The notes beneath the pieces were generated by a model that was given only the letters and a program-made list of their open reading frames with translations, was not told the DNA's origin and made no database searches. DNA of 64,000 nucleotides from Boothiomyces macroporosus (Eukaryota > Chytridiomycota > Chytridiomycetes > Rhizophydiales > Terramycetaceae): contig JADGKB010000012.1 of assembly GCA_027604185.1 (NCBI GenBank), positions 62,001 through 126,000 on the forward strand, in the 5' to 3' direction. Positions 285-64,000 of this stretch are shown in pieces. Within the stretch, counting starts at the first letter, position 1; every line of letters begins with the position of its first letter. The position numbers were made by a program, and so were the translations under genes.

Positions 285-1350
285 ATGAAGGATGCCAAGC
301 TAGACAAGAATATCATGGACGCACATAGTGAATTGCTACATTTGGAAGCAGATTTTCAGGTAAGAGACGTTTAAACGCGAGACTACTCTTCATCGTTGGC
401 AGGACGACCAGTCTGTTGATTTATCACACATACTCAATTTGAAAGCTCCCCTGGATAATCTAATTGATTTATTCCATTCTTTTCAAATCCCAAAGCAAAA
501 TAGTCCAGACATGCCATCGTTTCATGTTGAAACAACGTTGGCTATTTTGCAGTCCCTGTTGTCTCGCTATGACTCTACAGTCGACGCACTTACACAGGCG
601 AGAGACTCTGTTGCGCGTTTGGATTCTAGGCATATCGTATCAAACGAAAGATTGATAGACTGGGCATCCACAACTCTAAAATCAATGGCTGATATCAGGA
701 CCATCTTACTTAATCAACATCATTTAATTTCACATCAACAAGCAGAGAGGGAGCTTTTAAAACAAAGACTTGCAAAAACAGAAAAGCAGCGCCAAACTTC
801 AGAGAATCTGGCATTATCATTGGCAAAGAAACTAAACTCTGCTGAAGAAACAGTTATGCTAATGGTGCAAGAAAAGAAAAAACAAGACCAAAAGATTCTC
901 TCTCTACAAACGCAAATGAAGCAAATTACCAATTGGAAAGAGCATGTTAAAGGTTTGGGAGTAACTAAGCCCCAACCGCATAAGTCAAATAAGAGAGAAA
1001 GGATGCTGGAGTACGCAGAAAAACAACAGGTGCGAAGGATACTAAAGAACGAATACGAAACGTTACTAAAAGCCAAATCCAATTCCCAAACACCTTCAAG
1101 AACCCCTTCAAGAACTCCCACTAGGACTCCCACTAGAACACCAACTAGGTCAAGGTCTAGTTCAAATGCTAAACAGAAAAAGAAAAAAGTAAAGCCGGAC
1201 GAAGAGCTCTTGATTAAATTATTGGAAAACCTGCAAATGGAACGTAAAGAGAAAAAGAACATGTACCCAGCTCAATCGGTACTGTTTTCAAAGCTGCAAC
1301 AAGTAGATGGAGAAATCAATCAATTGGCAAAAGAACTATTATTAGAATAA
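285..1350 (+). CDS. Coiled-coil protein with TP(S/T)R repeats
   Basis: Exons 285-359 and 382-1350, predicted 347 aa. The ATG at 285 opens a 25-codon first exon; a 22-nt intron (360-381, GTAAGA...CGAG) keeps the frame. An alternative acceptor at 402 would make a 43-nt intron and drop seven residues. The protein is hydrophilic, with long heptad-like stretches (about residues 100-220 and 290-345), and a short basic TPSR/TPTR repeat (six copies, coded near 1090-1155) followed by RSRSSS and a Lys-rich run. That composition suits a phosphoregulated scaffold or cytoskeletal/centrosomal linker, but no family was recognised. It converges on the lipase gene with only 3 bp between stop codons. Confidence 0.75.
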
Positions 1351-1353
1351 AGT

Positions 1354-4085
1354 TTATTGGATTGGTGATCTTGGGCGATCAATGTTATTTAGTAAATAAT
1401 TCAAAATATGATCGGCTAGTGGATGATCTGAATTGTCTATAAAATATTGATCTGGCGGGGTTGGGATTATGGTTTTTGCTGGAACTATTGTGAATCGTTT
1501 CCATGGGAGTTGGGTAAGAGCTTTGGCCATTTTATGCTCGGTACTGTCATTGTAGACTGGTTGGGTTGCCAATGGTACCGTAGAAATCTGGTGAAACTTT
1601 GTTGGAATAGTGGAGGGTATAGACTGTAAAGTTCCTATGCAATAGGTAGAATATAATGAGCCTTCTTGGTACATATTCCCATACAGAACCAAATGTTGAA
1701 ATTGACGTAAAGGCTCCATATAATCTGGATGTGTCAAGTACTCTAGAATATGATGGGTATCGCCATCTTCAGTCATAAAGTTGTCAATCAGATTCAACTC
1801 ACATCCAGTGGGAGATATGAGCGGTTTGAGCCATTTGTATGACAATAGCGTGTTGGTGATTGAACTATGCTGAAAACCTAAATGAGGAGTGTCTATGGTA
1901 ATAAAAAACACTGGTTGCAACTTGTTTGGAATAACTTGTTCATCCATCAGCATTTTCAATAGAAATCTTGTGTACAGACCCCCAATTGAATGGCATATGA
2001 ACGAAATTTTGTCTGCATTGCTCTTTTCCACTTCTTCTAATATCCAAGCTAGCAATCTTGTTGATGCTGCAACAATTCCATCATTGGTTTTATGGTCGTT
2101 GCAAGTAGGGATGGATATTTTATAATTTGGTCTTTTGAACTTGTCCCTTAATTTCTCCGCGAGGAAAATCATATCATGGCCAACTCCGTCTATTCCGTGA
2201 ATCAAAATAATCAAGTGTACTTTGGGTTGCTGCACAGTGGCAGGGATTTCTTCAACTACGTTATCTGGGGGACCATCTATCGGCTGTCTGAAATGGTCCA
2301 CCAAATGGGTTATAATTGGGAATCCATGTTTCCTATTAAGGAATTCTGATTTGATAATGATATCGATGTGGGCAAGGAGTGGCCTAGTTGGGATTACTGC
2401 ATATCGTTTCCAAGGAAGGGTAATCAAAGTGTTGAGCATCAAATCTTCCCAAGGCAATTTAGCATTTGCAGTATAAGGAGGAACCACTGGTATTTCTTCT
2501 TCAGCTACATCCGGTATTATAGCAGGAAGTGAAAGCAAGCTAACATCTACTTTGGTCCTGAATGGGCCAAGTTTGCGTATTGCCGCTGTTGAATAGTGCA
2601 CTGAAGCGTCATGTCTTACATTTGAGTACACTATTAATTTAACAAAATATGTCAATGGCTTAATAAACGGTTCTTCAACAAGTTTGAGCAAAAATGGCAC
2701 CTGCAGTTCATTTCCGTCAGCAAGCATAAGTTCTACCATTAGTACTGCCAACCTTTTCCTGTATTCCCAATAAATGTTCCAAGAACGGCCGAGGTAACAT
2801 TTTCTCCAAATATCTTTCCGTGTTCTCGAGACCCCAAGTGCGGAGTTGCCAAAGATATATAGTTAATTGGCTGTATCTTATTAGGAATCAATCCATCTTG
2901 ATACATTAATCCAATCAAGCATCTTCCATACATGCCTCCTAAGCTATGTCCTATGATGGAGATGAATTTAACATTTGTTTGTTTTATCTCTTCCTGTACA
3001 CATGCATAGATTCTTGTCGCTCCAGCCAATATGCCATCGTAGGTGCGTCCATGATTACACTCAGGGGCTAATATCTTGAATAGCGGGCTAGGGAATCGGC
3101 TTTTGAGTCTTGCGCCGATAAACGCCATATCAGTATTGAATCCATCCAACCCATGAATCAATACAACCAAATGAACATCTCCAGTTGGAGGAGATGCTGG
3201 TTTCTCTGTTTCTTTTAGATCGACTACATGGGATTCAAACTGAGTGGCAATAGATTGAATTACGGGAAAGGCATTCTTTGTTTTCCAAAATTCAGATTTT
3301 GAAATATCCAAACTAGAGAAAAACGATTTACCAGAGACTATTGCCATTCTTTTCCATTCTAATCTGTCTAAAGCATTCAATATTTCATTCTCGTGATTAT
3401 CTTCTTCTGGATCAGCGACCATATCAGCTTCACTATCAACTACTATGTGCGGTTGAGAGGTATCTATTGGTTTTTGACCAGCCAAATTTAGAGTGCTCCT
3501 TCTTTTCAGGGACGATGTCCGGTATTGTGAAGAAGAGTTGCTTTTGCAGTACGAGTACGTTACTCTCTTTTCAAATAAATGAAGAGCCTCCAAATACTCT
3601 CGTTTGGCCATTTGTAATAATATTGGATTTTCTTCATCGTCTCGCAATAACAGCTCTTTTCCTGTTTGGCCAAGTATAATACCAAACACGAAGGTCTGAA
3701 GATCCTTTCCAAGGGTATTATAATAATACCTAGATCCCAAGTGATGTGTAGCGATCGTAATAAAGTTTAATGGGGTTACATCCCCTGGGATAATGTTTTG
3801 TTGATGTAAAAGTTTTATAGCATAGCGAGCATACAGTCCTCCTAACCCATGACACACTAAGGAAAGATATTTGGAGTTGTATTTTTGGATCTCCTGTGTG
3901 ATAAACTGATACAGACGCTCCCCACCTTCTTGGATCCCTCCGTTAGTCCTTCCCTGGTTACATTCCGGAATAAGCACCACACCGTACTTGTTGAGAACCT
4001 CCTTTACCGGAATCAAATCCGCGGCAAATCCGTCCATTCCATGTACAAGCACTATTAGGTGTTGGTATATTTTAACTTGTTCCAT
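1354..4085 (-). CDS. Triple-domain DUF676 (lipase-like) alpha/beta hydrolase
   Basis: Exons 4085-2753 and 2732-1354, predicted 903 aa. The 20-nt intron 2733-2752 carries TACTAAT next to its 3' end and restores TGKELML across the junction. Three tandem DUF676 serine-esterase units each start with an HG-D/N-G oxyanion motif (near residues 15, 310 and 623). Unit 2 has GHSLGG (Ser about 381) and unit 3 CHSIGG (Ser about 692), but unit 1 has CHGLGG with Gly80 where the nucleophilic Ser belongs, so it is probably inactive. No signal peptide is visible; family members act on lipids in cytosol or on membranes. The first in-frame ATG is at 4085. A single-unit paralogue is encoded divergently at 4679. 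Confidence 0.88.
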
Positions 4086-4678
4086 TGACTTGCACAATTT
4101 GAGAAAAAAGCAAGCAGCGAATAAATCAGAGACAAGAAAAGATAATAATGAGCTTGTGATATATTAGATATTATATTATGCTAGTTGGATTAGGTACCTC
4201 CATGATACACTGCCATTTCCTACAATGCACTTGGGACTGCCTCGGTAGACGGGAATTTGAGACAGTGTATATGGTAGACATTGTATAGTTTTTAGGCCAG
4301 CCTTTCTGTGTACATTAGATATATTCAAACACAGCTCTTCTGTATTAAAAATCTATGCGATCTGCCCCTTTGCTCTGTAAATCCAGACAAGTTCCAACTG
4401 TAGAACTTGACAAGCCATTTGTGGATGAACTCTACAGCGGAATTAGACACCAAAGACGAGGCTGAATCAATCGCCTAAACTAAATCTCAAAAAAAAACAA
4501 TAAATTTAATGCAAGCATTTATTTCGGCGAATTCCAGAGTGTTCTACTAGCAAGCACAAGACCAACTGGTTTCCTATCTTGGCAGTCAGTGAAATTTTGG
4601 TTATGACCACGTTTGTGTAACCGCATCCCAACATCACAGCCAAGCCAAAGCTTCTTTTTCTTTCCTCCTTGTAATTAA
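4086..4678. other. Intergenic region between divergent DUF676 genes
   Basis: 593 bp without a convincing open frame on either strand. It presumably holds the promoters of both lipase genes. An A9 run lies near 4490. I see no RNA gene or transposon ends. Confidence 0.5.
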
Positions 4679-5668
4679 ATGCACTTGGTCTTGTTGGTAA
4701 AAAGTATTTTAATTTCGTCTAGATTCATGGAGTAAATGGATATGCGAGCGACATGGATTATATTGCTGAAAAGATTCACAAAATTGCCCCAAAAGATACC
4801 ATCATTCAAGCACCACTCTGCAACCAAAAACAATCGCACGACGGAATATTGGTCTGTGCTCAAAGATATCTGAAATGGATAAAGTGGTTCATTGAAAAAT
4901 ACGAGAATATAAATGAAATATCAATGCTCGGGCACTCATTAGGTTGATTTGAATTAACATAGGTGGATTATACGGCCGTTGTCTGGTCGGCTTGCTGTAC
5001 AAAGAAAATATAATTCCGGACCGCTTAAAGCCGAGGAACTTCATAGCGCTATCAACACCTCATTTGCCGCCTGCACATCAAGACTGGCTGTTTGGAAAAT
5101 CATTAAGGAACTGGGGATTAAAAATGCTGATCGGGAAATCTGGAGTGGACCTGGCAATGCAAGATGATCGAGATAAACCAATCCTCCTTCAAATGTCCGA
5201 GGAGCCCTTTACAAAACCATTAGCCATGTTCAACAAGCTAATACTATACGCAAATATACGACATGATCCAGTAATTAATTATGGGAATGCATTGCTCTGT
5301 CGAAAAGACTATCCTGTCTGCAAAGCAGAGAAGCAGCATGGCCAGAAATCTTGGCCATTGGTTTTCCAACATGATGAACCATTGGAGCATTATGAGTGCA
5401 AGGAATTAGCGCAAGATGACAAAATTATGCAACAGTTGATGCAGCTGCCCTGGGAAAGGTACGGGATCGTTCCTTCGCGTCCTTTAATCGCTCATGCGGA
5501 CATGATTATAAAGTTCAAGTAATTGAAAACTAACATAGATCATGGAGTCTCAAACACGGAGAACCTATTATCGACCACATCGCTTCTCACTTTGATGACA
5601 AGACAGATCAAAGCGAAGAAGACAGCTCTGAAACTACAAAAGTAATGCGTGAAAAAGAAGTAATATAG
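4679..5668 (+). CDS. Single-domain DUF676 (lipase-like) hydrolase
   Basis: Exons 4679-4696, 4723-4942, 4963-5518 and 5539-5668, predicted 307 aa. Introns are 26, 20 and 20 nt; the first is longer than usual but is fixed by the HLVLLIHG motif it interrupts. The putative nucleophile is Ser78 in GHSLGG, and the intron at 4943 splits this very motif. The protein aligns along its whole length with units of the triple-domain gene (ENIIPDRLKP, LSTPHL, ILLQMSEEPFTKPL), so it is a paralogue, probably by local duplication and inversion. No transmembrane segment or signal peptide. Substrate unknown; the family includes lipases and esterases. Confidence 0.85.
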
Positions 5669-5691
5669 TATCCATTTGAATATTGTTTTAT

Positions 5692-6909: not shown

Positions 6910-8540
6910 ATGGTGTGTGGTGATATCGAAGACATGAATGGTGAAAAATGCAAGAACTGCGATAAAGGATGCAGCAAACCAAAGGTTGAATTATACGATG
7001 CCGTAATTATCGGGGCTGGGGTAATTGGTTGTTCTATAGCTCGCGAGTTGGCAAAGTACCACCTCAAAGTGCTTGTGATTGACAAGAGTTCTGACGTATC
7101 GCAAGGTGCTTCGAAATCTAATAGCGGGATAATTCACGCAGGATTTGACGATCAACATGGCACATTGAAATCCAAGCTCTGCCATAAGGGGAACCATATG
7201 TTTAGGGGTTTAAATGAAGAGCTAAACTTTGGATTCAGGAATATCGGATCTTTAGTACTCGCTTTTTCCAAGGATGAGATCAAATTGCTCGACGAATTGC
7301 TGGAAAATGGAATCAAGAACGGGGTTGAAGGGCTAAAGATTCTTAACAGGGAGGAAACTATAGCCATAGAGCCTCACGTTAATCCGCAAGTATACGCATC
7401 ACTATATAGCCCGTGTGCGGGAATTGTGTCTCCTTATGAGTATACAATTGCGCTTGCAGAAAACGCTAAACAAAATGGAGTCGACTTTCTGCTAACACAT
7501 GAAGTAACGGATATACAAATGGTTTCCAATGATACACACGAAACTGGAATTACGTCTGCAACTGGCAACCACTTTCTAACTAGAATGGCAAGATTTGGAT
7601 TAGCTGTTCGTTCAAAAATTGTGGTAAACGCAGCTGGAGTAATGGCAGATAGAATAGCAGCCATGGTTGGTGCAAATAATTTCTATATAGTTCCACGAAA
7701 AGGTGAATACGTTTTGTTGGAAAAAAGTCAAGGGCATCTAGCAAGACATGTTCTGTTCCCAGTTCCTTCAAAAATCAGGGGTAAAGGTATCCTTGTTAGC
7801 CCTACATATCATGGAAATCTCCTTTTGGGCCCCACTTCTCGCGGATCGGAAGAATCATGTATTTCTCAACGGGAAGTACTCAAGCTTATCATCACTTCTG
7901 CTAGACATTCGGTTCCAGCCTTTGATGCATCAATGGCCATCACATCCTACTCTGGTCTGCGTGCAAAGTCTTCTCGAAATGATTTTATCATTGAAGAAAG
8001 CCTGACAACACCTGGCTTTATCAACGTTGCAGGTATCGATTCTCCAGGCTTGACAAGTTCGCCTGCTATCGCACAGCTGGCCTCTGAATTAATTAGAGGT
8101 GCCTTGTCCAAACATTATAATCATCAAGTTCAAGCAAATCCAAAATTCAATCCAGTTAGGAAACCGATTATCATCAAAAAAACTGAAGAGTTCAAAGGCA
8201 CTATCGATAATGATGACGCTAATTTGAACATTATTTGTAGATGCGAAAGAGTAACCGAAGCAGAGATTGTTGATGCGATACGTAGACCATTAGGTGGACG
8301 CGATACCGATTCAGTGAAACGAAGAACAAGGTAAGTACGATTAATATCAGAGCTGGGATGGGCAAATGCCAAGGAACCTTTTGCGAGCCACGGGTCGCTC
8401 ATGTAATTGCACGAGAATTGGCAATTCAAGAAAAAGATGTTCTTGGCCATACGGCAGGATCGTCAATTCTCCCACATAGGAGAGTGACTGACGAAGACAA
8501 GCAGCTACTCGCAGAAATAGCCAAATTGGCTAAACTTTGA
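6910..8540 (+). CDS. FAD-dependent glycerol-3-phosphate dehydrogenase, GlpA type with BFD domain
   Basis: Exons 6910-8330 and 8351-8540 (20-nt intron GTAAGT...TTAATATCAG), predicted 536 aa. An N-terminal FAD-binding Rossmann fold (VIIGAGVIGCS, about residue 35) belongs to the DAO family; the best match is the anaerobic GlpA/NAD(P)-FAD oxidoreductase group. The C-terminus carries a BFD-like [2Fe-2S] domain with CRC near residue 440 and KCQGTFC in exon 2; the intron lies between the two Cys pairs. Unusually, it has a Cys-rich N-terminus (CKNCDKGC). This architecture is common in anaerobic bacteria and a few anaerobic protists, whereas fungi normally use the mitochondrial GUT2 type, so transfer from bacteria is plausible though the gene now has a spliceosomal intron. 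Exact substrate is inferred. Confidence 0.8.
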
Positions 8541-17397: not shown

Positions 17398-17984
17398 GGA
17401 CAGTATTTGAAGTGAAAAAAAAATAAGAAAAAATATCCAAATCTCTTTTGCTTGAAACCAGGAATGTAAGTAACGAATGCCAGCCATTGCAAGTGATTAT
17501 TAAATAATATTTGCTACTTCAGAGACAATCGTCAATGAGACCTACAAATCACCAAGATCGATGATGCAATGCTTTTTCATTTTCTAATATCTAGGAAGCA
17601 AAAGTCCTTTTTATCTTTGGTTCATTCCTTGTTTTTCGCAACGAATTCAATGTGGTGATGATATCCGGCATTTGTCTTAGACTTTCTGTCGCTGAAGATA
17701 AACTCCGGCTACCTTAAAACCTATCTGAACATTGAATTTGGAATAATTTTAAACTGAGTCTTTCTTGAGCTTTTATATGTGGGACTGTCTGGTATCTAAG
17801 GGGTATCCTACTGATCCTTTTACTGGCAGTATTTCTCTAATGACTTGCACACTAAACTAAATAGCAGATCATTTTGGTTCAGCAGAGAGATCAAGTTAAT
17901 AATCCAAGAACAATCCTCATTGGTTAAACCGTACACTTGTTTTAATTTTTTTTGCTCAAGTCTCTAGATCTGTAAATTCAAAAA

Positions 17985-19609
17985 ATGTTTTGTGCAAGTA
18001 ATTGAAACGCTGACTGTTAGTTTCTGGAGAAGCTCCGCAAGAGCCAGTGTTCTCTAAGACTGGTTATGTGTTTGAAAAGAGATTGATCATCAAGTATTTA
18101 GCAGAGAAAGGTGTCTGTCCAATCACCAACGAAGAAATGACTGAAGACGATCTATCGCCAATCAAATCCAGTAACAAATCTCTTACGTAGAACCGCTAGT
18201 TAAACCTCGTGCGCCAACCGCAACGTCAGTTCCAAATGCACTGCTCTCTTTACAAAATGAATTCGATGCGGTAATGTTGGAAACATTTGAATTAAAGAAG
18301 CAATTTCATGAATTGCAAAATCAGCTATCAAATGCTTTATATGAAAACGATGCTGCAAAAAGAGTTATCGCCAGGATTATAAAAGAGAGAGACGAAGCTC
18401 GCTCAAGACTACAAGACTTTAAGGCATCTTATGGGGAAAAGAATGCCGAACCTGTTCAAGAAAACGAAGAAATGAATTTGGAAGTCGATACTTTGCCAGC
18501 TGTGGTAGTTAGCAGAATAGATGAAAAATCTGAAGAGTAAATATTGTCTAACGTTAGACTTTCTGCTACTAGAAGAAAGAGAAAGGCTCCAGAAACCTTG
18601 GCCACTGCAGAAGAAATTTCTAGTCTTCAAGAGTCAGCCACCATCAAAACACTTAATACTGCTAAAGAATCTGCTGTTAACACGGTTGAACTTCAGGTTA
18701 AGATTGAAGATGGGGAAACCAGAGAATGGCTTTTGACTGCAGGGGCAGACGGAAGTGCATCTGTTGTTGACAAATCTAGCTTCAAGGTGGTAGCTTCAAA
18801 CAAAGCTCACAAGAAACCAGTTCACTCTGCAAAATGGATTGGAAATACTGACTCATTCTTGACCGCATCTGCAGATGAGACTGTCAAGAGCTGGACTTTG
18901 GAAACTGCAAAGAATGGTTATAAAATCAAAGGATCACAATCCCTTACTGCACATTCTGGTCCAGTTGTTGGAGTATCTGTTCACCCAACTAATGACTATT
19001 TCATTACTGCTGGAGAAGATGCTGTATGGAATTTTGCCGATTTGGAGAGATTCGAAATTATTTCTGCCGTCTCTACTCCAGAAATTACAGCAGGTACTCT
19101 TCTTTAATGTTAGCGTACAGCACAATTCAAATTCACCCTGATGGCTTATTATTAGGAACTGGATCTGCTGATTCAATCATTAGATTGTGGGATATCAAAT
19201 CCAAATCAATTGCTGCTTCATTTACTGGACATACTGGGGCAATTTCAAGCATTGCATTTTCAGAGAATGGATATCATGTAGCTACTGGTTCAACAAAAGA
19301 TAATTTCGTTAAATTCTGGGATTTGAGAAAGTTGACTGATTTCCACACTCTTGAATTGCCCCACACTGAAGGATTAGCTGGAGTACCATCTGTAAAGTTC
19401 GACCACAGTGGAAAATATGTAGGTGTTGCATACGGTAATAACTTGAGGTAGAGCTTTTCTAATTTAGCGTGTATGTCGTCAAGAAATGGAGCTTGATATC
19501 CACTTATGAACACCATCTTTCGCCAGTTACGGATTTCACTTTCGGACCAGATGCTAAATATATTGTAACAGGATCAAAGGAGCGTAAAGTTTCTATTTTG
19601 ACTGCTTAA
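17985..19609 (+). CDS. PRP19: Pre-mRNA splicing E3 ligase PRP19
   Basis: Exons 17985-17997, 18021-18170, 18191-18536, 18558-19093, 19114-19447 and 19468-19609, predicted 506 aa, the usual PRP19 length. The tiny first exon encodes MFCA and, joined across a 23-nt intron, gives MFCAISGEAPQEPV, the canonical U-box start. Next are the coiled-coil tetramerisation region (DAVMLETFELKKQF, ALYENDAAKRVIARI) and a C-terminal WD40 propeller (SFLTASADETVKSW, RLWDIKSKS). PRP19 is the core ubiquitin ligase of the NineTeen complex that activates the spliceosome, so it acts on the same ultrashort introns described here. Its own five introns are 20-23 nt. Confidence 0.95.
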
Positions 19610-27908: not shown

Positions 27909-29309
27909 ATGCAATCCCAGTACACCAAAAAGATTATCGATTTCGAAGCATTAGCATCCTCACTCAACGTAGGCCCCACTTCCAAAGAGCTTTCCGCACA
28001 TCTAGACAAGACTTCAGTCACCTATCGGGACGAATTCCATATTCCCAAAGTCGGTGCAATTACTAGAAATAATCAGCATCCGCTTAAGGATGAAGATGGT
28101 GTTTACATGTGCGGCAACTCATTAGGTTTACAGCCAAAGAGAACTAGGGAGTTGTTGAATCAAGAGTTGGACGTATGGCAGGAAGTTGGTGTTGATGGCC
28201 ACTTTGATCACCGATTAGGCCGCCCATGGGCTAAAATCGACGATTTGGTAAATGAATCCAGCGCAAAAATTGTTGGAGCAAAGGTTGATGAAGTCGCCAT
28301 CATGAATTCGTTGACTGTTAATGTCCACTTTATGATGGTTCCATTTTACACTCCAACACCCAAAAAGTACAAGATCTTGATGGAAGCTAAAGCGTTTCCT
28401 TCAGATTATTTCGCTATTGAATCTCAAGTAAAGTTTCATGGGTACAATCCTGCCGATGCAATTATTCAACTAGCGCCGAGAGAGGGAAGTTTTACTTTGG
28501 AAACTTCTGATATTCTTGAAGCAATTGAAAAGCACGGAGATGAAATCGCGCTTGTTTTGTTTAGCGGAGTGCAATATTATACAGCGCAATACTTTGATAT
28601 TCCTACTATTACCAAGGCTGGTCACGCAAAAGGGTGCATTGTAGGATGGGATTTAGCTCATGCTGCTGGAAACGTACATTTAAAGTTACATGACTGGGAT
28701 GTCGATTTCGGTAATCAAACACTAATAATTAGCTTGCTGGTGTTCATACAAGTACTTGAACTCTGGCCCTGGAGGTATTGCGGGTGCATTTGTTCATGAA
28801 AAGCACAGAAACACTGTCAGACCAAGGTTGATTTATTCTGACATAGATTTGCTGGTTGGTGGGGAAATAACCCTGAAACAACTTTCCAAATGAACTTGGA
28901 ATTTGACTCTATTTCTGGTGCTAGAGGATACAGATGTTCCAACCCATCAGTATTAACTGTAATAGCACTAAAAGCTTCATTGGACGTATTTGACAAAACT
29001 GACATGAAAACCTTGGTAGAAAAGTCTCAAAAGTTGACTGCATACCTTGAATACTTGGTTGACACTTTATTACCAAAAGACAGAGTGCAAATCATTACTT
29101 GCCGTGACCATTTGCAAAGAGGATGCCAACTTTCATTGATGTTCTTGAAAGAGGGCGAAATGGACATTATTTTCAATAGGCTCCATAGCGATGGTATCAT
29201 CTGTGATGAAAGAAGACCAAACGTATTGAGAATCGCACCTACTCCTCTTTACAACACTTTTGCAGATATTCACAAAGTTGTCACTGCTATCCAATCTCAT
29301 TTCAAATAA
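27909..29309 (+). CDS. Kynureninase
   Basis: Exons 27909-28710, 28733-28826 and 28847-29309 (introns 22 and 20 nt), predicted 452 aa. The PLP site is split by the first intron: after splicing, [20 protein letters not shown] appears with the Schiff-base Lys in [17 protein letters not shown] and [15 protein letters not shown] are further family motifs. It hydrolyses kynurenine or 3-hydroxykynurenine to anthranilate or 3-hydroxyanthranilate plus alanine, in tryptophan breakdown or de novo NAD synthesis. No other pathway gene is nearby. The fungal equivalents are called BNA5. Confidence 0.95.
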
Positions 29310-30625: not shown

Positions 30626-31460
30626 ATGTCGTCTCAAATCGCTACCTGCGCAGACGTTACAGTGAAATTATTATCCAATGGATTAGCAAGAGACAAGATC
30701 AACAGGTACTAATCACTAACAAGACTCGTCCAGTACTATTCCAAATTCTTGATTTGGTTTGGAAAGGAAAAGTACACCAAAGAACAACTCGCAAGATTAC
30801 AATCATTAATGGTACTAATTGTTAATACAGTCTGCCATGGCGTCTACTCGTAAGGGTAAGTGTTGTTAATATAGCGATGAGATTGGGTAAACAACTGGAG
30901 CATTTTCGTAACGTGCAAAAAGCAAGCTCAATCAAGGACGATATCGTACGTATTCTCACTGTAATTAAGTCCGGAGGGTTAGGAATGTGGTTGATGTTTG
31001 ACGCTATGGGATGGGTAAACTATTTCTAACAAGGCTCATTCAACTAAACTGATACAACTACAAGACTCGAAGCTAGTCGCTAAAAGTACGTATTACTAAC
31101 TTGGGGGGTAACCAGTTCTGGCTTTCGTCGCTTATTGCTTCCCTCTTGTTGAATATCTACCATCTAAGGCACTTTTTACTAATACAGATGGAACCAAATC
31201 AGATTATCGCAAGAGCTGGCAATCAAGAAACCTATTCCAGGCTTAGATCCTAAAGATCCTCAAGCAACCAAGATAAAGAGCTTGAGAGCGTATGAAAATG
31301 TTAATTTAGTGAACAAGGAAGTTTGATTTACAGTGCTATATCTGATGCTCTGGATGTATGTATACCAGCAATCAATGCAGAATACTTGCATTTGGATGGC
31401 GGTATTGCTGGGCTATGTGGATCAATAACTTCGGTTATGGCTATTTGTAAGTGGAATTAA
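30626..31460 (+). CDS. PEX11: Peroxin-11 (PEX11)
   Basis: Eight exons: 30626-30705, 30724-30811, 30831-30855, 30875-31014, 31034-31085, 31105-31168, 31188-31289 and 31310-31460; predicted 233 aa, the usual PEX11 size. Motifs: LARDKINRLVQYYSKFLIW, LGKQLEHFRNV, the hydrophobic GNQFWLSSLIASLLLNIYHLR, and a C-terminal GGIAGLCGSITSVMAI membrane segment. PEX11 elongates and divides peroxisomes. Its introns are the smallest set here: 18, 19, 19, 19, 19, 19 and 20 nt. The sixth (31169-31187) is GC-AG. The fifth (31086-31104) seems to end in GG; a conventional GT-AG alternative of 40 nt (31066-31105 region) would lose about seven residues. The start could also be the ATG at 30593. No long open frame exists, so the gene is easily missed. 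Confidence 0.85.
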
Positions 31461-34425: not shown

Positions 34426-37400
34426 ATGGAATCCAAAGAAACCAACATCACAGTAGTAGTAAGAGTAAGGTAAGCAGAAAATAATTTTCTAGGCCTCGAA
34501 ATCAAAGAGAGATTAGAGAAAACTCGTCGGTATGCGTTACGGCGCAGAATAACCAAATAATGGTAAAAGCAAACCCAAGTGCCAGCGATGCTACCACTAA
34601 AACATTCAGTTTTGACAAGGCATTTGGACCGGGTGTAGGACAAGAAACGGTTTTCAAAGAAGTTGTTGCAGGAATGCTCCAAGAAGTACTGATGGGTTAT
34701 AACTGTACGATATTCGCATATGGTCAGGTAATCTGAATTAATCTAGACTGGCACAGGGAAAACATATACTATGGAAGGAGATCTATCTGAACCAACAACA
34801 GGATCTGGAATTATCCCAAGAACCCTTTACTCATTATTTGATCAGCTAGATAATGAGACTCTTGAATACTCTGTCCGTGTCTCATTTATCGAGTTGTATA
34901 ATGAAGAACTAAAGGATCTTTTGTCTCCTGAAACTGATTTCAGGAAACTAAAATTATATGAGGATTTGAACAAGAAAGGTTCAGTGGTGATCCAAGGGCT
35001 TGAAGAAACTTTGGTTAAAAATGCGGATGATGTGATTACTATATTACAAAGAGGAAGCAAAAAGAGACAGATTGCTGCCACAAAAATGAATGAATCCAGT
35101 AGTAGATCACACGGTATCTTTTCAATCACAGTTCATATAAAAGAAAATACACCTGATGGCGAAGAGCTGTTGAAAGTTGGCAAGCTGAACTTGGTGGATT
35201 TGGCAGGTTCTGAAAATATTGGACGATCAGGAGCGGAAAATCGTAGAGCCAAAGAAGCTGGAATGATCAACCAAAGTTTGTTGACTTTGGGACGTGTGAT
35301 TAACGCCTTGGTGGAAAGAAGTCCACATATTCCTTATAGAGAAAGTAAATTGACAAGAATTCTGCAAGATTCCCTTGGAGGAAGGACCAAAACATGTATC
35401 ATTGCAGCAGTCTCACCTTCGAAATGCAGTATTGAAGAGACTCTGTCCACTTTGGATTATGCTCATAGGGCCAAAAATATTAGAAACAAACCAGAAATCA
35501 ATCAAAAGATGACAAAGAGGGCTCTCATTAGAGAGTACATTAATCAAATTGAACGTTTAAAAAGCGATCTACTGGCAGCAAGAGAAAAGAATGGGATATA
35601 TCTGTCCCCTGAAGTAATTTTTATTTAACAGCAGTCTTATAACACTCTAGTTGCTGAAAATAACGGTAATAAAGCTCAAGTGGAAGAAGTGTCAAAGTTA
35701 ATGGAAGGACAAATTGAAGAGATGAAAAATCTTGAAGCAAAGTTCAAGCAACAAACTGAAATGCTATCCATCACTACATCTCAGTTAGAAGATGCCATGG
35801 CGGATTTGGACCAAAAGAAGAGTGATATTGAAAGGCTGTTTGGGCAAACTCAACAATTGCAACAGAGTTTATCGGAACAACAATTTATTACCAGGTATAT
35901 TTCACTTGATATTAGTGCCTACGCAGAAACAGAAAGACAACTTGATTCCTTGGCAACTGGCTTAGCAGACACGCTTCAATCTAGCATTAATGATTTGGAA
36001 GGCCTGCATCAAAAAATTGAAAGAAAAACTACTGTAGAAGCTGAGAATACAAAACTTTTCGAAGAATTCCAAGGCAAAATAGTGTCCAACATTTCTTCTG
36101 TGGAAGAAAGAATCCAACAATTTGAGCAATGCTCGACAGAGATTTGTGAAAAGATTAACAGCGATTCTGACAACTGTATCAAGCAGTCTTTGGAGTTACT
36201 TCACACAAGGGAACAGCTGTATACTGAAAGTGTGACCAAATTAGCAGAGATGCAACAGCAGATCTCGAATGGAAGCAGTTTAATATCGCAAGAGTTCACC
36301 AATACGCTTGCTAATATCGTTAAACTTGCCGACAACCTTGGTACTCAAGTTACTGCTATACAAAATGAACTGCTTTCCAGCCAAAAAACAATGGTTTCTC
36401 AGCTTCAATCAAGTATACATGCATTTACATCAAAAGTAAAATTTTACTAACAAGCTCTCTTCCGATTGGAATAACACTTTGCAAATTGTTTCTGGTCTTG
36501 AAAATGGAGCTACTGAATATTTGGAAAATTCCAAGAATCACAGGGAAGAACAGCATAAATCTCTAGTTGACAAACTCACTAGTCAAGTAATTCTTTTTTA
36601 ACCCTGATTAATCAATTGTCTGACGATAACAGAGCACTAAAACACCAAGTAGAGTCGCAAAAGGAGACACTCAGACACAAAGAATCACTTGTTTTAACTG
36701 AAATTGAAGCTTGCTTAAAGAAATATAGAGCCGACTGGGAAGAGACTCTTGATTCTACTGTGCAAGAAGCTGCAAAGTCAATGGAAGGGGGTTGTGAAAA
36801 GTTGGCAGAAATCGTTGGTGAGGAGATTCACGCAAACGGCGAATTCCAAAATCATTTGGTTCAACAAAAAGAATTTCTTGAATACCAAACTCAAGAGTTT
36901 AGCAAACTACACAACTCTGCAATTAAGGTAAGTTCTAATTAAGGTAGAATGTAGAGGAGACTGCTATGGAAAGCAACTCTGGTTTGGATAAAATGTATGA
37001 AAATTCATTGGGTTTGGTCAAATCACTTGACGCTCAAGTTCAGGAATCACTCAAGATCATTGTTAATGACGAACAAAAACACTTGACTAAATTACACGAC
37101 CTAGCTGCTGAATCAAATAAGACTGCTGTTGATTCAATTGGCATGGGTAGAGAATTCTTGAGTGGACTTTCTCAAGAATCAATGAAGTTGCACGAAACAT
37201 TCACTAGTCATGTGCAACAAACCAAGAAAAATGTAAATGCTGATTTGACAGTAGGTTGAAGAACAATCTAAAGAACTTCAAGACATTAAACAAGAATCGA
37301 TCCATATACTCAAAGCTTGCGAGAACGTAGTTCGAGAGCAGTCCTTGTACATGGATGTTCCAACTGGTGCAACACCAAGAAAGAGAAAAATCCCGTACAA

Positions 37401-52800: not shown

Positions 52801-54352
52801 ATTCATTCTCCTTTGGCTGTGCTTCAGTAGAGCTCGAGTCCTCTGCTGTAGTCTTTGGAAGATCGGTAATACTAGTGGACATTTCATAATCATCGTATTC
52901 ATCTTGGGAATCTTCATCTTCACTTTCCTCCGTCTCATTTTCCTGAATTACGGTAGTTGGCCGAGCCTCCTTTGTTTCTTGGATTTCTTTCAACAGTTTT
53001 ATCAATTGTTGCCTTTTGTTTTCCATAGATACAAATAAACCTTCATTTTCATAACTGGTTAATATTCGATCATCTGCTTCCTTTGCAAGAATCGCCAAAA
53101 CGGTAGCATTGTAAACTGCTAGCACCTCCTGACTGGTGTTTTTAAATAGTAATGTTTCATAAACAATTTTTGCTACTGACTTGAGATACGGTTTGTAATC
53201 TGTAGGTTTACACAATTGAAATATCTGACATACCAGTATCAATACCTTTTTGCGGACTGAAAACGTATTACAAGTGCTAAATGTGGAGCAGAGTTCAGGT
53301 ATAAGCTTCGCAAATTCTGAATAATCTCCACTTTTACATTCCGCCTCTTTATCATTGGATATCTTCCAAATGCCGTTGGCAATCAATGGCGGCATCAAAT
53401 TTGTCAACATATCTACGATAGCAGCTTGCTTGCTGGAATCCTTTTTAGCTATAATTAGTTCTCTGCTCATATTGGAAATAAATAATTTCCGAGCACTTAC
53501 CCATAATCCTGATAGAAATATCCAGCAATCCGAATTCTGCCATCTCTTTGTATTTGTATTTTTGTAATATCTTGAAGTATATAGGTTTTTCTGTCTGAGA
53601 AAGCTGCTCACAACATTTTTGCAACTCGAGCTTTTCCAATATTGGTGAGTAATTTGAGATCGAGTGAATACAATTACCAGCCTTGTTTGATATTTTTTCA
53701 TCTTGGTGATTCAAAAGGGAAAATAATATCGGAATGGCTGGTTTAATCAATTCAATTGTAGCAGATTTATCAGAGAGGTATTGCAGGCAGGCACAAGCGT
53801 TAGTGACGATGGAAATGGATTTATCTTGGACATGAAGAGAGAAAAAGTCCAGATACTGCAAACATGCTATTATTCCACCTATGCTAAGATTTTTGTTACC
53901 CTTTTTTAGAATTGTAATCGAACATTCAGAGCTAATAGCATGCAACAAATAAATAATCTAAGGTGAGCTTCAACCTACTTGCTCCGCCAAATCAATGAAC
54001 TCCAAATTGTTCAGCTTTTCCAGCAGTATTTCGATCCCCTTTTGCTGTTGTATCAATAGAGAAGCATGTGGTAACACTTCTACCACATTTGTCAAACACC
54101 GCAACGCCAAAAGGACTGTATCGATCAGATCAGTTGGTGTTGAAATCAACTGAATTAATACTGAGACTATTGACGATGGAATTGAATCTAAATTAAAACA
54201 AAATTACCTATGTTAGAAAATGTAACCTAAAGTCAGTAAAAGCTACCTGTAGTTACTAGCAATAGTTCGGATAGTTCTGACAGCGCAAATAGAGCTGTGG
54301 TCGAGTCCGACTGAAGTTCCTGAATCAGTTCGTTTATTCTCTTTCTGGTCAT
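49885..54352 (-). CDS. UFD4: HECT E3 ubiquitin ligase, UFD4/TRIP12 type
   Basis: Exons 54352-54247, 54187-53979, 53957-53501, about 53460-50618, 50596-50272, 50252-50010 and 49988-49885; about 1425 aa. N-terminal ARM repeats (LALRCLTNVVEVLPHAS, LQYLDFFSLHVQ) match TRIP12, the middle is acidic, and the C-terminus is a HECT domain with LPSVMTC (catalytic Cys) followed by YLKVPEYSN, ending EGKESFHLS. UFD4/TRIP12 handles ubiquitin-fusion degradation and N-degron substrates. Intron 1 (54188-54246) is a 59-nt block made of three abutting intron units of 20, 19 and 20 nt. The third intron starts at 53500 and ends at 53461 (40 nt) or 53449 (52 nt), both in frame; others are 19-21 nt. Confidence 0.92.
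54188..54246 (-). other. Three back-to-back introns in the UFD4 gene
   Basis: Read on the minus strand, 54246-54227, 54226-54208 and 54207-54188 are each a complete intron by local consensus (GT..., a TGAC/TAAC/TAAT element, TAG) with no exon between. All three must be removed to keep the frame; removing only the first exposes an early TAA. Confidence 0.75.
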
Positions 54353-54529: not shown

Positions 54530-55027
54530 TTACTTTATAATCAGTACTGGCACACTTCCCTTCATAAGGTAATCCGATACAGATCCTAAAAAGTACTTTT
54601 CCAAGTTACCCCTCTCTTTAGTGCCTATAAGGATCATATCAAAAGTCAAGTCGTGTTTGTCCATATACTGCGGTTAATAGATTTAGACCTGCGTTATGTC
54701 CATTGTACCTTTTTAGTAATTTCGCCGACAGAACCTTCCCCTTCGATTTGAGTAAACTCGTACTCGAACGAATATTTCGATAAAATCTCAATCAACTTTG
54801 CATTTTCGGTTTGCGCTTCATCTTCGATTTCCATATTGTACGCCTTTTCTAAATGATCAATGTACGGTGTGGTCTTATTAGTTGAAAAGTACTTGTTTTG
54901 GGTTGAGTGCGATTACGTTCAAAATAATCAGATTGTATTCCTTTAGATTCTGGCATAAATTCGAAGCATAGTCTAGCGATTTGATCGATTCGCTGGTGCT
55001 GTTTAAAAGAATCAAGATATTGAACAT
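54530..55027 (-). CDS. Universal stress protein (USP) domain protein
   Basis: Exons 55027-54893, 54873-54709 and 54667-54530, predicted 145 aa, one USP domain. The start FNILILLNSTSESIKSLDYA forms the first strand and helix, and the C-terminus ILIGTKERGNLEKYFLGSVSDYLMKGSVPVLII carries the ATP-binding G-x2-G-x9-G(S/T) type motif in modified form (GTKERGN...GSVSD). The second intron region (54668-54708) is two abutting introns of 21 and 20 nt. Role unknown; likely a small nucleotide-binding stress protein. Confidence 0.85.
54668..54708 (-). other. Two back-to-back introns in the USP gene
   Basis: Read on the minus strand, 54708-54689 (GTACAATGGACATAACGCAG) and 54688-54668 (GTCTAAATC...CCGCAG) abut exactly. 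Removing only the first leaves GTC TAA in frame; removing both restores the USP fold at YMDKHDLTFDMILIGT. Confidence 0.75.
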
Positions 55028-56974: not shown

Positions 56975-58289
56975 ATGTCTACCTTTGGAAGGTAAAATTG
57001 CCTTAATGTTCCAGTTTGTTTCGAGTAACTACATTTGGCGAGTCTCATTGTAAAGCAGTAGGTGTTATTGTTGATGGCTGCCCACCAGGTTTACCCCTTT
57101 CAGAATCTGACGTGCAACCTCAATTAACAAGGAGGAGGCCAGGTCAAAGTGATTTAACTACACCAGTAATACATACTAATATCAGAGGGACGAAAAGGAT
57201 CAGGTTACAATTTTATCCGGATGTGAAAAGGGGTATACTTTAGGAACCCCAATTGCAATGATGGTTCCAAATCAAGACCAACGACCACACGATTATGGCG
57301 AAATGGACTACTATCCAAGACCTTCGCATGCGGATTGGACTTATTTGCAAAAATATGGAATCAAAGCATCATCTGGAGGAGGTCGCTCAAGTGCCAGAGA
57401 AACAATTGGTATTTTGGATTAATGAAAGGTAGAGTGGCAGCATCCGCAATTGCAGAAAAGTATTTGAAATCTGCATTTGGAATTGAAATTGTCGCTTTCG
57501 TTAGTGCAGTGGGCAACGTAAGAATGGAACCAATGGAAGATTACGAAGATGCACAAGATAAAGGCGCATGGTTGGAAAAATGGCACAAATGGTGGAGTTA
57601 TTTAAACGGTGTGCAAAGAAAGGATGTGGATGCGAACGAAATCAGATGTCCTGACCCTGTAGTAGCGGAAAAAATGAAGCAGGTGGGTTATTTACTAACC
57701 AAAAGAGAATCTTGAAAGCAAAAGAGGACCAGAATTCCATTGGTGGTGTCGTTCAGTGTGTCATTAGAAATGTTCCAACTGGGTTAGGAGAACCATGCTT
57801 TGACAAGTAATCACTCTTTTAATTAGGCTCGAAGCCAAACTCGCACACGCAATGCTTTCAATCCCTGCTACCAAAGCCTTTGAAATTGGTAGCGGAATGG
57901 CAGGTACTCAAATCCCTGGTAATGTTCACAATGACTCATTTGTACAAAACGATGGTCGCATGCGGACAGAAACAAACTTCTCTGGTGGTATCCAAGGCGG
58001 TATTTCTAACGGTGAGGATATCTACTTTAAGGTGGCCTTCAAATCTGTAGCCACCATTGGACAGGAGCAGGAAACAGCAAAGTACACCGGTGCTGCTGGC
58101 GTTTTGGCAGCGAAAGGTAGACATGACCCTTGCGTTTTACCAAGGGCTGCTCCTATCGTCGAATCTATGGCTGCGTTAGTTATTATGGATATGGTTTTGC
58201 AACAAGAAGCAAGGAAGGGTGCAGCAAGTCATTTGCAAAAGAGCGACATTCCTCCGGTGCTTACTGGCAAATTGGAAGGTGCGATGTAA
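56975..58289 (+). CDS. ARO2: Chorismate synthase
   Basis: Exons 56975-56991, 57015-57165, 57186-57408, 57429-57682, 57706-57806 and 57827-58289 (introns 23, 20, 20, 23, 20 nt), predicted 402 aa. Signatures: [15 protein letters not shown] (signature 1), [36 protein letters not shown], and [15 protein letters not shown]. It makes chorismate from EPSP using reduced flavin, the last shikimate step, showing that the organism makes aromatic amino acids or at least keeps this enzyme. The 17-nt first exon encodes only MSTFGS before the first intron. Confidence 0.95.
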
Positions 58290-58333
58290 TAAATATCATT
58301 AACTTAATGATTACATTGGTTTATTTTATCAAC

Positions 58334-59046
58334 TCAAGAAACCGGAGCTACAGAAGTCTTGAACAGTCCATCAGGTCTTTGTTCCTCTTCTTTGATAAAC
58401 TGTAAAACTTCATCCACAAATGTTCCCGCTTTCCCACTTGCTAAATCCTCTTTGTAAGTGGTGGCTCTTGCAATAGCTTCCTTGAAAATTGTTACCACAT
58501 TACTTCCATCGCTAGCAGATACAAAATAAAACGGCAAATCCTGCTCATTACCTCCTCTCTCTATTCTTCTCTTTTCTACAAACGCGAATGATTTCGTAGC
58601 TCTTGAAGGGTCCATATCAATCTTGTTCGCAACAACAATAACCGGCATCTTTATACCACGATGTGAAACTAATTCTTCATACCAAGTATCCAAATTCTTG
58701 TACCTATATTAATAAATCTTACGTTATCTTTCTAGTAACGTCAAAAACTAGGATACAACAATGAGCTCCGTGGTAGTAACTGGCATGCATACTTAAAAAG
58801 CGCTCTTGCCCAGCTGTATCCCAAAAATCAACTTCTAAATTTTCAGATGGGGTTTGTGGATTTGGACATACATGCCTGTACAATGTCAAGGCATAAGTAG
58901 AAGACTGGTGGGGGATGTAATCGTCAAGTAAATATCTTTCCATGAGTTTAGATTTCCCTACTGCAGAGTCTCCTAATAAGATAATCTTGTGAGTTGCAAA
59001 GTACCTTTATATCTGCTGGTTTCTCTACCTTTTGAATGTCTTTCAT
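58334..59046 (-). CDS. RABL2: RABL2-like small GTPase (ciliary)
   Basis: Exons 59046-59005, 58985-58723 and 58703-58334 (two 19-nt introns), predicted 224 aa. It follows RABL2 closely: IILLGDSAVGKSKLMERYL, STYALTLYRH, VDFWDTAGQERFLSMHASYYHGAHCCILVFDV, VVANKID and YFVSASDGSNVV. RABL2 binds IFT-B and controls entry of IFT trains into cilia; the family is restricted to flagellated lineages. The frame stays open upstream to an ATG at 59208, which would add 54 residues (GILDYICNVQTRKALWELI...) not present in RABL2; I chose 59046 because it matches the family's short N-terminus. Confidence 0.92.
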
Positions 59047-59337: not shown

Positions 59338-59814
59338 CTACTTTTTTTTCTTGTTGAATGTTTCTTCCCAGGATCTAGCTCTACTTTTCCATGCAAATTT
59401 ATCTTTAGGGAGATTAGATGTCGGTTTGTATTCGGGAATTCCTTCCCATTTCTTAGCTGGATTAGCTTCAGCGTCGTGTCTGATACTCAGAATAGTTCCT
59501 TTGAATGGAATTCTGTTGATATTATTAATTAAATACTCTGCTGCATTTTTGTCTATTGATGCGAATCCAAAGAGCTTTGGTTCCCTCGTAGTTTTGTTGA
59601 AAGCAATTTCACACTTTTGAGCGTATCCAAATCCATCTAGAAATTCATACAGTTCATCGCTTGTAGTTCCAAGAGGAATATTCTGGATAAAGACCCTTTG
59701 TAAATCTTCTTTTAAATTCTTTAGCCTATCGCTGTATACCGCTGGAATAACGCTGGGAAATGCCGTCCTGATTTGGGAATATAAATATGGACGCTTTACT
59801 ATTCTAAAGTTCAT
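59338..59814 (-). CDS. Small RRM protein
   Basis: Single exon, 158 aa. One RNA-recognition motif: RNP2 is RVFIQNI and RNP1 is KLFGFASI, with DELYEFLDGFGYAQKCEI between. The N-terminus is basic and lacks acidic residues up to about position 29 (MNFRIVKRPYLYSQIRTAF), consistent with mitochondrial import, and the end is WEETFNKKKK. Specific role unknown; a mitochondrial or nuclear RNA-binding factor is inferred. The start codon is 30 bp from the divergent SGT2 start. Confidence 0.85.
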   Translation of the reverse strand: MNFRIVKRPYLYSQIRTAFPSVIPAVYSDRLKNLKEDLQRVFIQNIPLGTTSDELYEFLDGFGYAQKCEIAFNKTTREPKLFGFASIDKNAAEYLINNINRIPFKGTILSIRHDAEANPAKKWEGIPEYKPTSNLPKDKFAWKSRARSWEETFNKKKK

Positions 59815-59844
59815 TGGAAACCAAAAGAAAAAAGTCTAGAAAAA

Positions 59845-60857: not shown

Positions 60858-60948
60858 ATTGATTTTAATTTCATTTTTTTCTTTTGGTTGAATTGGTGTT
60901 TAATATCTGTTGCCCTAACATGCAAAATGTCTTCCTCAAGCTATCAAC

Positions 60949-61134
60949 TTGAAAAATCAAGAAATCAACCTGAAAACACAAGAATTGCTCAATCGTCTTG
61001 CACATTTGGATGATAAACTAGGGGCATCAATTAGATTATGTGATGGTATAGTGGCAGCCACCAATTTAGATGTTTCAACTGCTGAAATCTTTCAAAATCG
61101 CATACCAAACACGGGCCAAATTGACCACAATTAA
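60949..61134 (+). CDS. Uncertain small open frame
   Basis: About 60 codons with a protein-like amphipathic helix (LNRLAHLDDKLGASIRLCDG) but no in-frame ATG; no usual intron connects it to an upstream start. It could be a small complex subunit with an unseen first exon, or chance. Together with 61135-61394, where nothing was recognised, it fills the 536-bp gap between SGT2 and SAS-6. Confidence 0.25.
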   Translation: MKNQEINLKTQELLNRLAHLDDKLGASIRLCDGIVAATNLDVSTAEIFQNRIPNTGQIDHN

Positions 61135-61394
61135 ACTCTACTAAATTCTTTCAGCTAAATAAAGGTGTTTTATACACTCGAATGGCCTGTTCGATACTCT
61201 TTCATGTGGTGCGATATCTGATTAATGACTCTTTCATGTGATACGAACTTGATCTATATTTACTTGAAATAACAGAATTTCTTTCCCAGTTTGCAGTCGA
61301 GTATCTCACAGATCAGTAATCAAAAAGCAATTAAAAGCTCAAACAGACTTTAAAGTTGCAAAGTTTTTCATTTTTGTCTGAACTCGAGAATCTA

Positions 61395-63181: not shown

Positions 63182-63192
63182 TAAAAAGAGAT

Positions 63193-64000
63193 TTATTCGC
63201 TAGAATTATTTTCTGGATTCTGTTTAAAAAGGAATTCTGCCAAGTAATCAATTGGATCCTCTGGCCGAATTTTAGCAACTTCTACCAGTCCAGCAGTTAA
63301 AGTAGGCATAATATACTTTACCAAGTAGTTTCTTAATGGCTCGGATTGGATTTCCAATACTTCCTGCTCTTGTTTACGCACTTGTTCCAACTTTGCATTC
63401 CATTCCGCAGTTGCTTTGTTGTGGCGTTCAATTTCTTCTTGCTGTCTCTTAAATCGCTCTTCAGCAGCTGCTGCTTCGGCATTCAACTAACGTTAGAATA
63501 ATATACTTTTGCTTTTTCAGCTTCTTTTCTTTCTGCTGCAATTTGCTCTGGAGTTAGTCCGTAATTTCGAGGTTCGCCCAATTCTTTTTGGATTTGCTCA
63601 ATGATTTGATTAGTTTCGAGTAATTCAGCTTGCAAAATTGCCGGACTGATTTCTAATTCATCGAAATAATTCAAAACGGTTAATTCGTCAGTGTTGTTCT
63701 TTCTGAAATCATCCAGTCTTTTTGTCAACGCTAAATTAATGTATTTCTACCTTCTTCAGAATTCTTTGTGCCTACTACAGCAGATTCAGGTAATTTTTGT
63801 ATCCTTTGTTTGATGGCCAAGTCAGACATTTCGATTGTGAACACAAACTCTGGAACGACCACGTCATCAACAACAGGAATAATTCTTTCTTCTTTTCCAT
63901 CATCGTCCGAGGCTTCGTTAGTAATATTTACGTTTAAATAATTCGGCTGCTTCCTCCATGGTAGTTGGGAAACCATCGAGTATATAACCCTGATTCTTGC
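63193..64000 (-). CDS. AK7: Adenylate kinase 7-like protein, 5' part outside window
   Basis: Exons 64000-63932 (partial), 63912-63751, 63730-63507 and 63486-63193; introns 19, 20, 20 nt. Visible parts: NQGYILDGFPTTMEEA (NMP-kinase core), FTIEMSDLAIKQRI, a coiled segment (AAAAEERFKRQQEEI), and a C-terminal Dpy-30 motif (LRNYLVKYIMPTLTAGL then PIDYLAEFLFKQNPE). An adenylate kinase fused to Dpy-30 is the AK7 architecture, an axonemal enzyme balancing ATP/ADP/AMP in flagella. It converges on SAS-6 with 11 bp between, two flagellar genes side by side. The N-terminus, including the P-loop, lies beyond 64000. Confidence 0.92.

Follow-up and report, generated by a model that had tools for sequence, protein, structure and literature searches.

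Short introns in the window

We analyzed a stretch of 64,000 nucleotides (nt) from the genome of Boothiomyces macroporosus, a chytrid of the order Rhizophydiales, family Terramycetaceae, corresponding to positions 62001-126000 of contig C12 in an assembly of 15,203,306 bases and 216 contigs, and referred to below as the window. It encodes, among others, a chorismate synthase, a kinesin-5, a kynureninase, PRP19, a MARK-like kinase and a Rab-like GTPase, whose open frames are interrupted by very short segments bounded by GT and AG. These segments are very likely U2-type spliceosomal introns of this organism, shrunk near the mechanical minimum. The window contains 116 called introns, distributed on both strands between 360 and 63931, and 109 of them measure 18-26 nt, in good agreement with the first-pass annotation, which had placed about 110 introns from the bare sequence. 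The N-terminal domain of SAS-6, found in the window by a Pfam family search, is consistent with a zoosporic fungus.

The introns were called with a small gene finder trained on long open frames from a 264-kb sample of this one species, made up of the window and 20 stretches of 10 kb and covering 1.7% of the genome. In a flat round, GT..AG was the sole splice requirement and the length prior was flat from 10 to 150 nt, the counts being those of the second pass; in a refit round, splice-site matrices and a length prior were learned, so that the flat round constitutes the less circular evidence. After the refit, the sample holds 430 introns in 147 gene models, 35 of which are intronless, and short introns number on average 2.7 per gene model, or 1.9 for each kb of coding sequence. 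The earlier description of an intron-rich genome of fungal affinity is supported. Scaled by length, and if the sample is representative, the genome is estimated to carry about 23,000 short introns.

Twenty of the 116 window introns were compared with homologues, and 19 of them join without an insertion or deletion (indel) near the junction. For chorismate synthase, a junction was counted when gap-free within 6 residues, among 120 homologues that include the B. macroporosus record itself; at all five junctions, at least 98% of the covering homologues are gap-free. For five other genes, alignments to PDB chains were inspected visually, any gap no more than 3 residues from the junction being counted, and 14 of 15 introns are gap-free. 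The kinesin-5 check covers two of nine introns, the other seven lying outside the aligned domain; the second of the two is the kinesin intron already cited in the first-pass annotation.

56992..57014, + strand, chorismate synthase intron 1: 23 nt, phase 2, gap-free in 109/111 homologues
57166..57185, + strand, chorismate synthase intron 2: 20 nt, phase 0, gap-free in 119/119
57409..57428, + strand, chorismate synthase intron 3: 20 nt, phase 1, gap-free in 118/120
57683..57705, + strand, chorismate synthase intron 4: 23 nt, GTG start, phase 0, gap-free in 119/120
57807..57826, + strand, chorismate synthase intron 5: 20 nt, phase 2, gap-free in 118/120
34470..34492, + strand, kinesin-5 intron 1: 23 nt, alignment to human KIF11 continuous
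34728..34746, + strand, kinesin-5 intron 2: 19 nt, alignment to human KIF11 continuous at FAYGQ/TGTGKT
28711..28732, + strand, kynureninase intron 1: 22 nt, alignment to a solved kynureninase continuous
28827..28846, + strand, kynureninase intron 2: 20 nt, GTT start, alignment to a solved kynureninase continuous
17985..19609, + strand, PRP19 gene (Pfam Prp19), encoding a factor of splicing and ubiquitin ligation: five introns of 23, 20, 21, 20 and 20 nt; four of five junctions clean against solved Prp19, with a one-residue gap at the fourth
40906-40925, 41233-41252, 41477-41496 and 41612-41631, + strand, MARK-like kinase: four 20-nt introns, alignment to MARK1 continuous at 4/4
58986-59004 and 58704-58722, - strand, Rab-like GTPase: two 19-nt introns, alignment to Ypt7 continuous at 2/2

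An acyl-CoA-dehydrogenase-like protein of the window, whose gene has two introns, gave no PDB match at a strict threshold.

Size class, splice signals and relatives

The size class is already visible without a gene model. Both strands of the window were scanned for segments of 18-21 nt, running from GTA to YAG, whose removal joins two open frames that are otherwise closed. There are 38, against 3 to 9 for each of seven other motif pairs at the same lengths, and no length outside 18-21 nt stands out in this test. In the flat round, 124 of the 319 introns of the sample fall at 19-22 nt, while the remaining 195 are thinly scattered over other lengths and are largely chance, the noise of a weak model. 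In the refit, 399 of 430 introns measure 18-26 nt, with 2, 64, 175, 88, 50, 15, 3, 1 and 1 introns at the successive lengths and a mode of 20, the value claimed previously. As in the ultrashort-intron genomes of the nucleomorph, Stentor and mikrocytid type, nearly all introns are thus no longer than about 25 nt. The distribution falls sharply below 19 nt, from 23 introns at 19 nt to 2 at 18 nt in the flat round and from 64 to 2 in the refit, and we infer a physical floor for intron length.

A second class of longer introns was considered and rejected: the 31 refit introns outside 18-26 nt form no peak, and of the 168 flat-round candidates measuring 25-150 nt, just 25 carry the anchored branch motif described below. 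Some candidates outside the size class come, by eye, from fused gene models; a few with good ends, such as one of 52 nt at 53449-53500 (- strand), look real. The Isy1 gene carries, at 1761-1806 of locus L039, a 46-nt intron with good ends whose removal matches the protein of Boothiomyces sp. JEL0838, which suggests that somewhat longer introns may be spliced too.

The short introns share their ends. GTA opens 361 of the 399 short introns of the refit, as the first-pass annotation had proposed, and the 3' ends are TAG (253), CAG (90), AAG (50) and GAG (6). Among the 137 flat-round segments of 17-24 nt, 116 start with GTA and 112 end with YAG; GT..AG was imposed there, so only the third bases are free evidence. 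The 5' site has a weak G at +5 (22%, with T at 43%; refit). The middle had been described as pyrimidine-rich: it is T-rich (43.5%), and with 13.7% C it does not form a strong pyrimidine tract.

A branch motif stands at a fixed place close to the 3' end. YTRAY followed by 4-7 nt after its A is present in 90 of the 137 flat-round segments, whereas 200 runs with shuffled interiors average 10.5 and never exceed 19; the looser YTNAY is present with the same tail in 106, compared with a shuffled mean of 22.5. The A of YTNAY is the putative branch point. Among the 119 flat-round segments in which the motif was scored, this A lies at position 14, 15, 16 or 17 in 41, 57, 9 and 5 cases, and the tail after it measures 5 nt in 42 and 6 nt in 53. 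The refit gives the same picture for 362 scored introns: 125, 163, 45 and 12 at positions 14 to 17, none at 13 and 15 lower, with tails of 4, 5, 6 and 7 nt in 15, 145, 158 and 27. The 3'-proximal position of the motif noted at first is thereby confirmed, and its spacing has to be corrected: in place of the 2-5 nt announced between the branch element and the final YAG, 303 of 362 introns have 1-2 nt separating YTNAY from the terminal NAG, and both examples cited have 1 nt. YTAAY is found in 62% of the 399 short introns of the refit, YTRAY in 73% and WCTRAY in 21%.

Deposited proteins of relatives offer a further view, biased to lengths divisible by three: an intron of such length without a stop codon can appear in a deposited protein as extra residues. 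A screen of records P0001-P0039 (chorismate synthase) and P0241-P0261 (U2AF65) gave only three inserts that measure 5-20 residues and lie no more than 3 residues from a junction. At chorismate synthase intron 5, Globomyces pollinis-pini (P0002) has a 9-residue insert, YTLQFLIHR, which back-translates in the right phase to the 27-nt GTAYACNYTNCARTTYYTNATHCAYAG, and an uncultured protein (P0026, source lgn) has a 6-residue insert, YLGLIR, which back-translates in the right phase to the 18-nt GTAYYTNGGNYTNATHAG, with a predicted branch A at 14 and a tail of 4. At intron 3, the record Hompol1 (P0033), presumably Homolaphlyctis, has 14 extra residues, equivalent to 42 nt. The read-through peptides suggest introns of 18 and 27 nt at one shared position in relatives; intron positions would be shared, and short introns of the same build seem to extend beyond one assembly. 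A Kappamyces U2AF65 record ending in VRIGLLTW at a Boothiomyces intron position fits read-through; back-translated by hand, it was not counted.

Deposited records P0003, P0241 and P0001 were also compared with the window gene at 56975-58289 and with the U2AF65 gene on contig C2 (L031). The window chorismate synthase (+ strand) matches, with 100% identity across 76% of its length, the deposited HK103_000936, which begins at residue 96 of our gene model. The U2AF65 gene matches HK103_002678, which is 11 residues short and fused to an upstream gene with PF17136. Both deposited B. macroporosus proteins compared thus look incomplete, and three residues are missing at intron 1 from the chorismate synthase of JEL0866: annotation handles genomes with ultrashort introns badly.

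Three further window candidates are listed below.

54668..54708, - strand, two candidate introns of 20 and 21 nt abutting without an exon between them, or a single 41-nt intron (gene finder)
30856..30874, + strand, 19-nt intron GTAAGTGTTGTTAATATAG, the sole exact copy in the assembly, labelled PEX11 by the first-pass annotation
8331..8350, + strand, 20-nt intron (gene finder) in a gene spanning 6910-8540 that, by eye, encodes a FAD-dependent oxidoreductase

The 41 nt at 54668-54708 may be removed either as one intron or as two in succession. A similar intron pair, flanking an exon of few bases, occurs in Isy1 (L039, about 1259-1299). Elsewhere in the window, adjacent genes on both strands at 1354-5668 encode, by eye, repeated lipase-like domains with GHSLGG-type motifs, the protein at 1354-4085 having three such domain copies.

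Splicing machinery encoded in the genome

Genome searches recovered two U2 small nuclear RNA (snRNA) genes above the cut-off, with GUAGUA retained, a U6 snRNA above the cut-off, with ACAGAGA retained, and a U1-like gene with AUACUUACCUG near its 5' end. The two U2 genes (L022 and L023; 142.2 and 135.4 bits) have diverged: their 3' stems differ and the branch-pairing region is common to both. A SNORD24 C/D snoRNA (47.8 bits) lies in the window at 17488-17568 (+ strand), about 420 bases upstream of the PRP19 start and outside every called intron.

Family searches of the genome found Slu7, Prp18, SF1, U2AF35, Cwc25 and Isy1, while PRP19 is encoded in the window itself. Removal of introns of 21 (GC..AG), 19, 19 and 20 nt turns U2AF35 into one full-length open frame, and Cwc25 retains its MGGGDLNLKKSW start (MGGG). 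The Cwc25 region is present twice (L036 and L037, on C49 and C100), identical over 1500 of 1500 bases, and two RRM matches on C20, at 74242 and 119309, are equal; each pair is either a duplication or redundant assembly. U2AF65 scored 230.7 against a cut-off of 310.3 when exons were searched singly, with an RRM model that also weakly matches two bacterial control genomes; the spliced protein aligns end to end with U2AF65 homologues. Its four junctions examined, which lie outside the window, are gap-free in 56/119, 118/120, 117/120 and 116/119 homologues. At the first one Globomyces reads ATGLFLLPCH and Kappamyces ATGMFLLPSH, as predicted by a 19-nt intron, and it is there that the deposited B. 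macroporosus protein is 11 residues short.

The first-pass annotation had regarded this genome as a subject for the study of spliceosome reduction and had proposed to compare its U2, SF1, U2AF and PRP19-complex content. Reduction is not supported: U2, U6, U1-like, SF1, U2AF35, U2AF65, Slu7, Prp18, Cwc25, Isy1 and PRP19 were found. To our knowledge, microsporidia and mikrocytids lack particular 3'-splice-site factors. In Boothiomyces, no loss of such factors was seen, with SF1, U2AF65, U2AF35, Slu7 and Prp18 present and U4, U5, SR proteins, Smu1 and RED not searched. A reduction of the microsporidian or mikrocytid type was therefore rejected, since every factor searched by family was present, and so was a loss of U2AF, both subunits being encoded. 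The earlier comparison with microsporidia accordingly holds for intron architecture and fails for spliceosome reduction. SPF45 was not detected with one fragment as query, which does not demonstrate its absence; as a substitute for U2AF it was set aside, the single match reading as an RBM39-like protein of RS-RRM-RRM-UHM composition.

Two factors appear to have diverged. The RNP1 octamer of U2AF65 RRM1 reads KEHCHVEF, with the aromatics replaced (H-C-H). Among the 120 matches listed, which include the B. macroporosus record itself, 118 have F or Y at position 3 and 118 at position 5, and KNSAIVEF occurs in one other record. The RNP1 aromatics contact RNA. The protein retains RRM2 RNP1 (KGFAFCEY), the ULM tryptophan and the UHM GRRF. 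Since only 5-6 nt follow the putative branch point, there would be no space for a tract, and selection on RRM1 would consequently be relaxed: this is a reasonable reading of the RNP1 change, which may have other causes. It is possible, though we would not wager on it, that U2AF65 has partly abandoned the reading of the tract and is retained for its contacts.

Isy1 begins with MAPKTLAQKQE both in this genome and in Boothiomyces sp. JEL0838, whose Isy1 is 98% identical. Among the matches listed, 68 of 118 homologues have the MARN start, many others being cut at an inner Met, and Globomyces reads MANNQKEKQKSVVHRF. The 5' gene model is uncertain, with two introns around a tiny exon and a JEL0838 record spliced differently. 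An outright loss of the Isy1 N terminus has been softened on account of this uncertainty and because DKLANILKKYD can be aligned by eye to EKAQSMLYRFR behind an extension.

Interpretation and comparison with known systems

The segments have GT..AG ends and a branch motif able to pair with U2, and snRNAs and core factors are encoded, as expected of U2-type introns. In the proposed mechanism, the GTA 5' site would be read by U1 and U6, and YTNAY by SF1 and then by U2. The loop would be near-minimal: it would span about 14-15 nt, counted from the 5' G to the branch A, and a tail of 5-6 nt would lead on to the end of the AG, both lengths being close to the lower limit set by the active site. No space would be left behind the branch point for a polypyrimidine tract; the 3' splice site would be chosen by its short and constant distance from the branch point, exon ligation using the AG 5-6 nt further on. 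Slu7 and Prp18 are retained despite such near 3' sites. In yeast, these two factors matter most for distant 3' sites.

Several observations weigh against this interpretation. We infer from DNA that the segments are spliced in the cell; 195 of the 319 flat-round introns fall outside 19-22 nt, and the refit, by learning its own length prior, is partly circular. WCTRAY, the stricter branch motif, is present in just the 21% of short introns given above. In a test for avoidance of decoy introns, exons contain 1 observed versus 2.2 expected, too few events to be informative, and 96 of the 116 window introns are supported by reading frame and motif alone. The U1-like gene reaches 68.8 bits, just under the Rfam gathering score of 69.5, and the first U2AF65 junction, gap-free in only 56 of 119 homologues, lies in a poorly conserved stretch.

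The introns were called in a single assembly with our own gene models, and a gene finder can insert short gaps that mend frames; the segments could thus be assembly indels or frame errors patched by the gene finder. Such errors would neither have GTA, an anchored YTNAY and YAG in common nor form a peak at 20 nt while the other motif pairs stay flat, and relatives carry same-phase inserts at intron positions, which makes this explanation extremely improbable. A true removal by another route, whether DNA elimination, ribosomal bypassing or an endonuclease-ligase pathway, would suit segments that are known from DNA and that, at 20 nt, are very short for a spliceosome. The GT..AG ends, the U2-complementary branch motif, the encoded snRNAs and factors, and the GC..AG example in U2AF35 all speak for splicing, and we regard such a route as very unlikely.

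A reduced or specially modified spliceosome would add to the reading as U2-type introns rather than replace it, and we hold it to be doubtful. It finds some support in the KEHCHVEF of U2AF65 RRM1, where F or Y is the norm, and in the MAPKTLAQKQE start of Isy1, whose N terminus is also reported as not conserved in Stentor (PMC9505925). Each factor searched by family is present, though, Cwc25 keeps the MGGG start that is reported as lost in Stentor (PMC9505925), and in U2AF65 both RRM2 and the UHM persist, as does the ULM tryptophan; the gene model at the 5' end of Isy1 is uncertain.

As U2-type spliceosomal introns, the segments resemble those of the nucleomorph of the chlorarachniophyte Bigelowiella natans, which has more than 800 introns of 18-21 nt in about 300 genes (PMC10245619), so that the likeness in size proposed in the first-pass annotation is sound. 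The narrow range, the intron richness for the genome and the GT(A) start are further common traits (PMC10245619, PMC2483917); that genome is a relict endosymbiont nucleus, whereas in Boothiomyces an anchored branch motif occurs in the nuclear genome of a fungus. According to Irimia and Roy, Paramecium, B. natans and dicyemids form an intron-rich class with short introns and no branch-point signature, and strong splice elements accompany few introns (PMC2483917). Boothiomyces has many short introns together with an anchored, though degenerate, branch motif, and so departs from the signature-less class of 2008. Its WCTRAY frequency of 21%, versus 29% in Drosophila (Irimia and Roy, PMC2483917), places the difference in the anchoring and not in a yeast-like consensus.

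Stentor coeruleus, with introns of 15-16 nt, shares the GTA start, a fixed branch A, a 5-nt tail, retained snRNAs and a diverged Isy1 N terminus; the authors conjecture that the changes in Isy1 and in Cwc25, which has lost its glycine start, avoid a clash with the sharp lariat (PMC9505925). Unlike in Boothiomyces, the loop there measures 10-11 nt instead of 14-16, no strong branch consensus is reported (PMC9505925), introns are confined to about 18% of genes, and Cwc25 lacks the glycine start that is kept here. The introns of Mikrocytos mackini (16-17 nt, 224 in total, with 17-19 spliceosomal proteins identified) are likewise uniform, ultrashort and conserved in sequence (PMC10245619), but belong to a parasite, whereas here an estimated 23,000 introns come with no sign of a comparable spliceosome loss. 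A fixed distance between branch motif and AG is also known from Yarrowia lipolytica and Trichomonas vaginalis (2 and 4 nt, versus 2-3 here by the count of Irimia and Roy, PMC2483917); Yarrowia has few and long introns (719, averaging 269 nt; PMC2483917) and Trichomonas has few, whereas those of Boothiomyces are ultrashort and many. Paramecium and Nyctotherus have exclusively very short introns, of about 25 nt, in free-living or non-nucleomorph nuclei (PMC5014332); they are ciliates, and Paramecium is reported to have no branch signature (PMC2483917). No description of ultrashort introns in a chytrid was found in searches of openly licensed papers, which is weak evidence of absence.

The combination of an intron-rich genome, ultrashort introns, an anchored branch motif and retained 3'-site factors is odd: the ultrashort cases compared are a relict nucleus, parasites and ciliates, and Boothiomyces matches neither their pattern nor the signature-less intron-rich class. 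Boothiomyces provides an opisthokont setting with thousands of almost minimal splicing substrates, in which one can test how small the loop and tail may become, whether U2AF is required and what the sharp drop below 19 nt reflects. As a tentative proposal that we rate below even chances, Boothiomyces and its close kin may practice tract-independent splicing, with a short ruler from the branch point, the RRM1 of U2AF65 no longer reading poly-U and the protein being retained to connect SF1, U2AF35 and the U2 snRNP. If true, an intron-rich organism would be losing the link between the polypyrimidine tract and U2AF65, and Isy1 would have been remodeled in parallel with Stentor, giving space for a 14-nt lariat loop.

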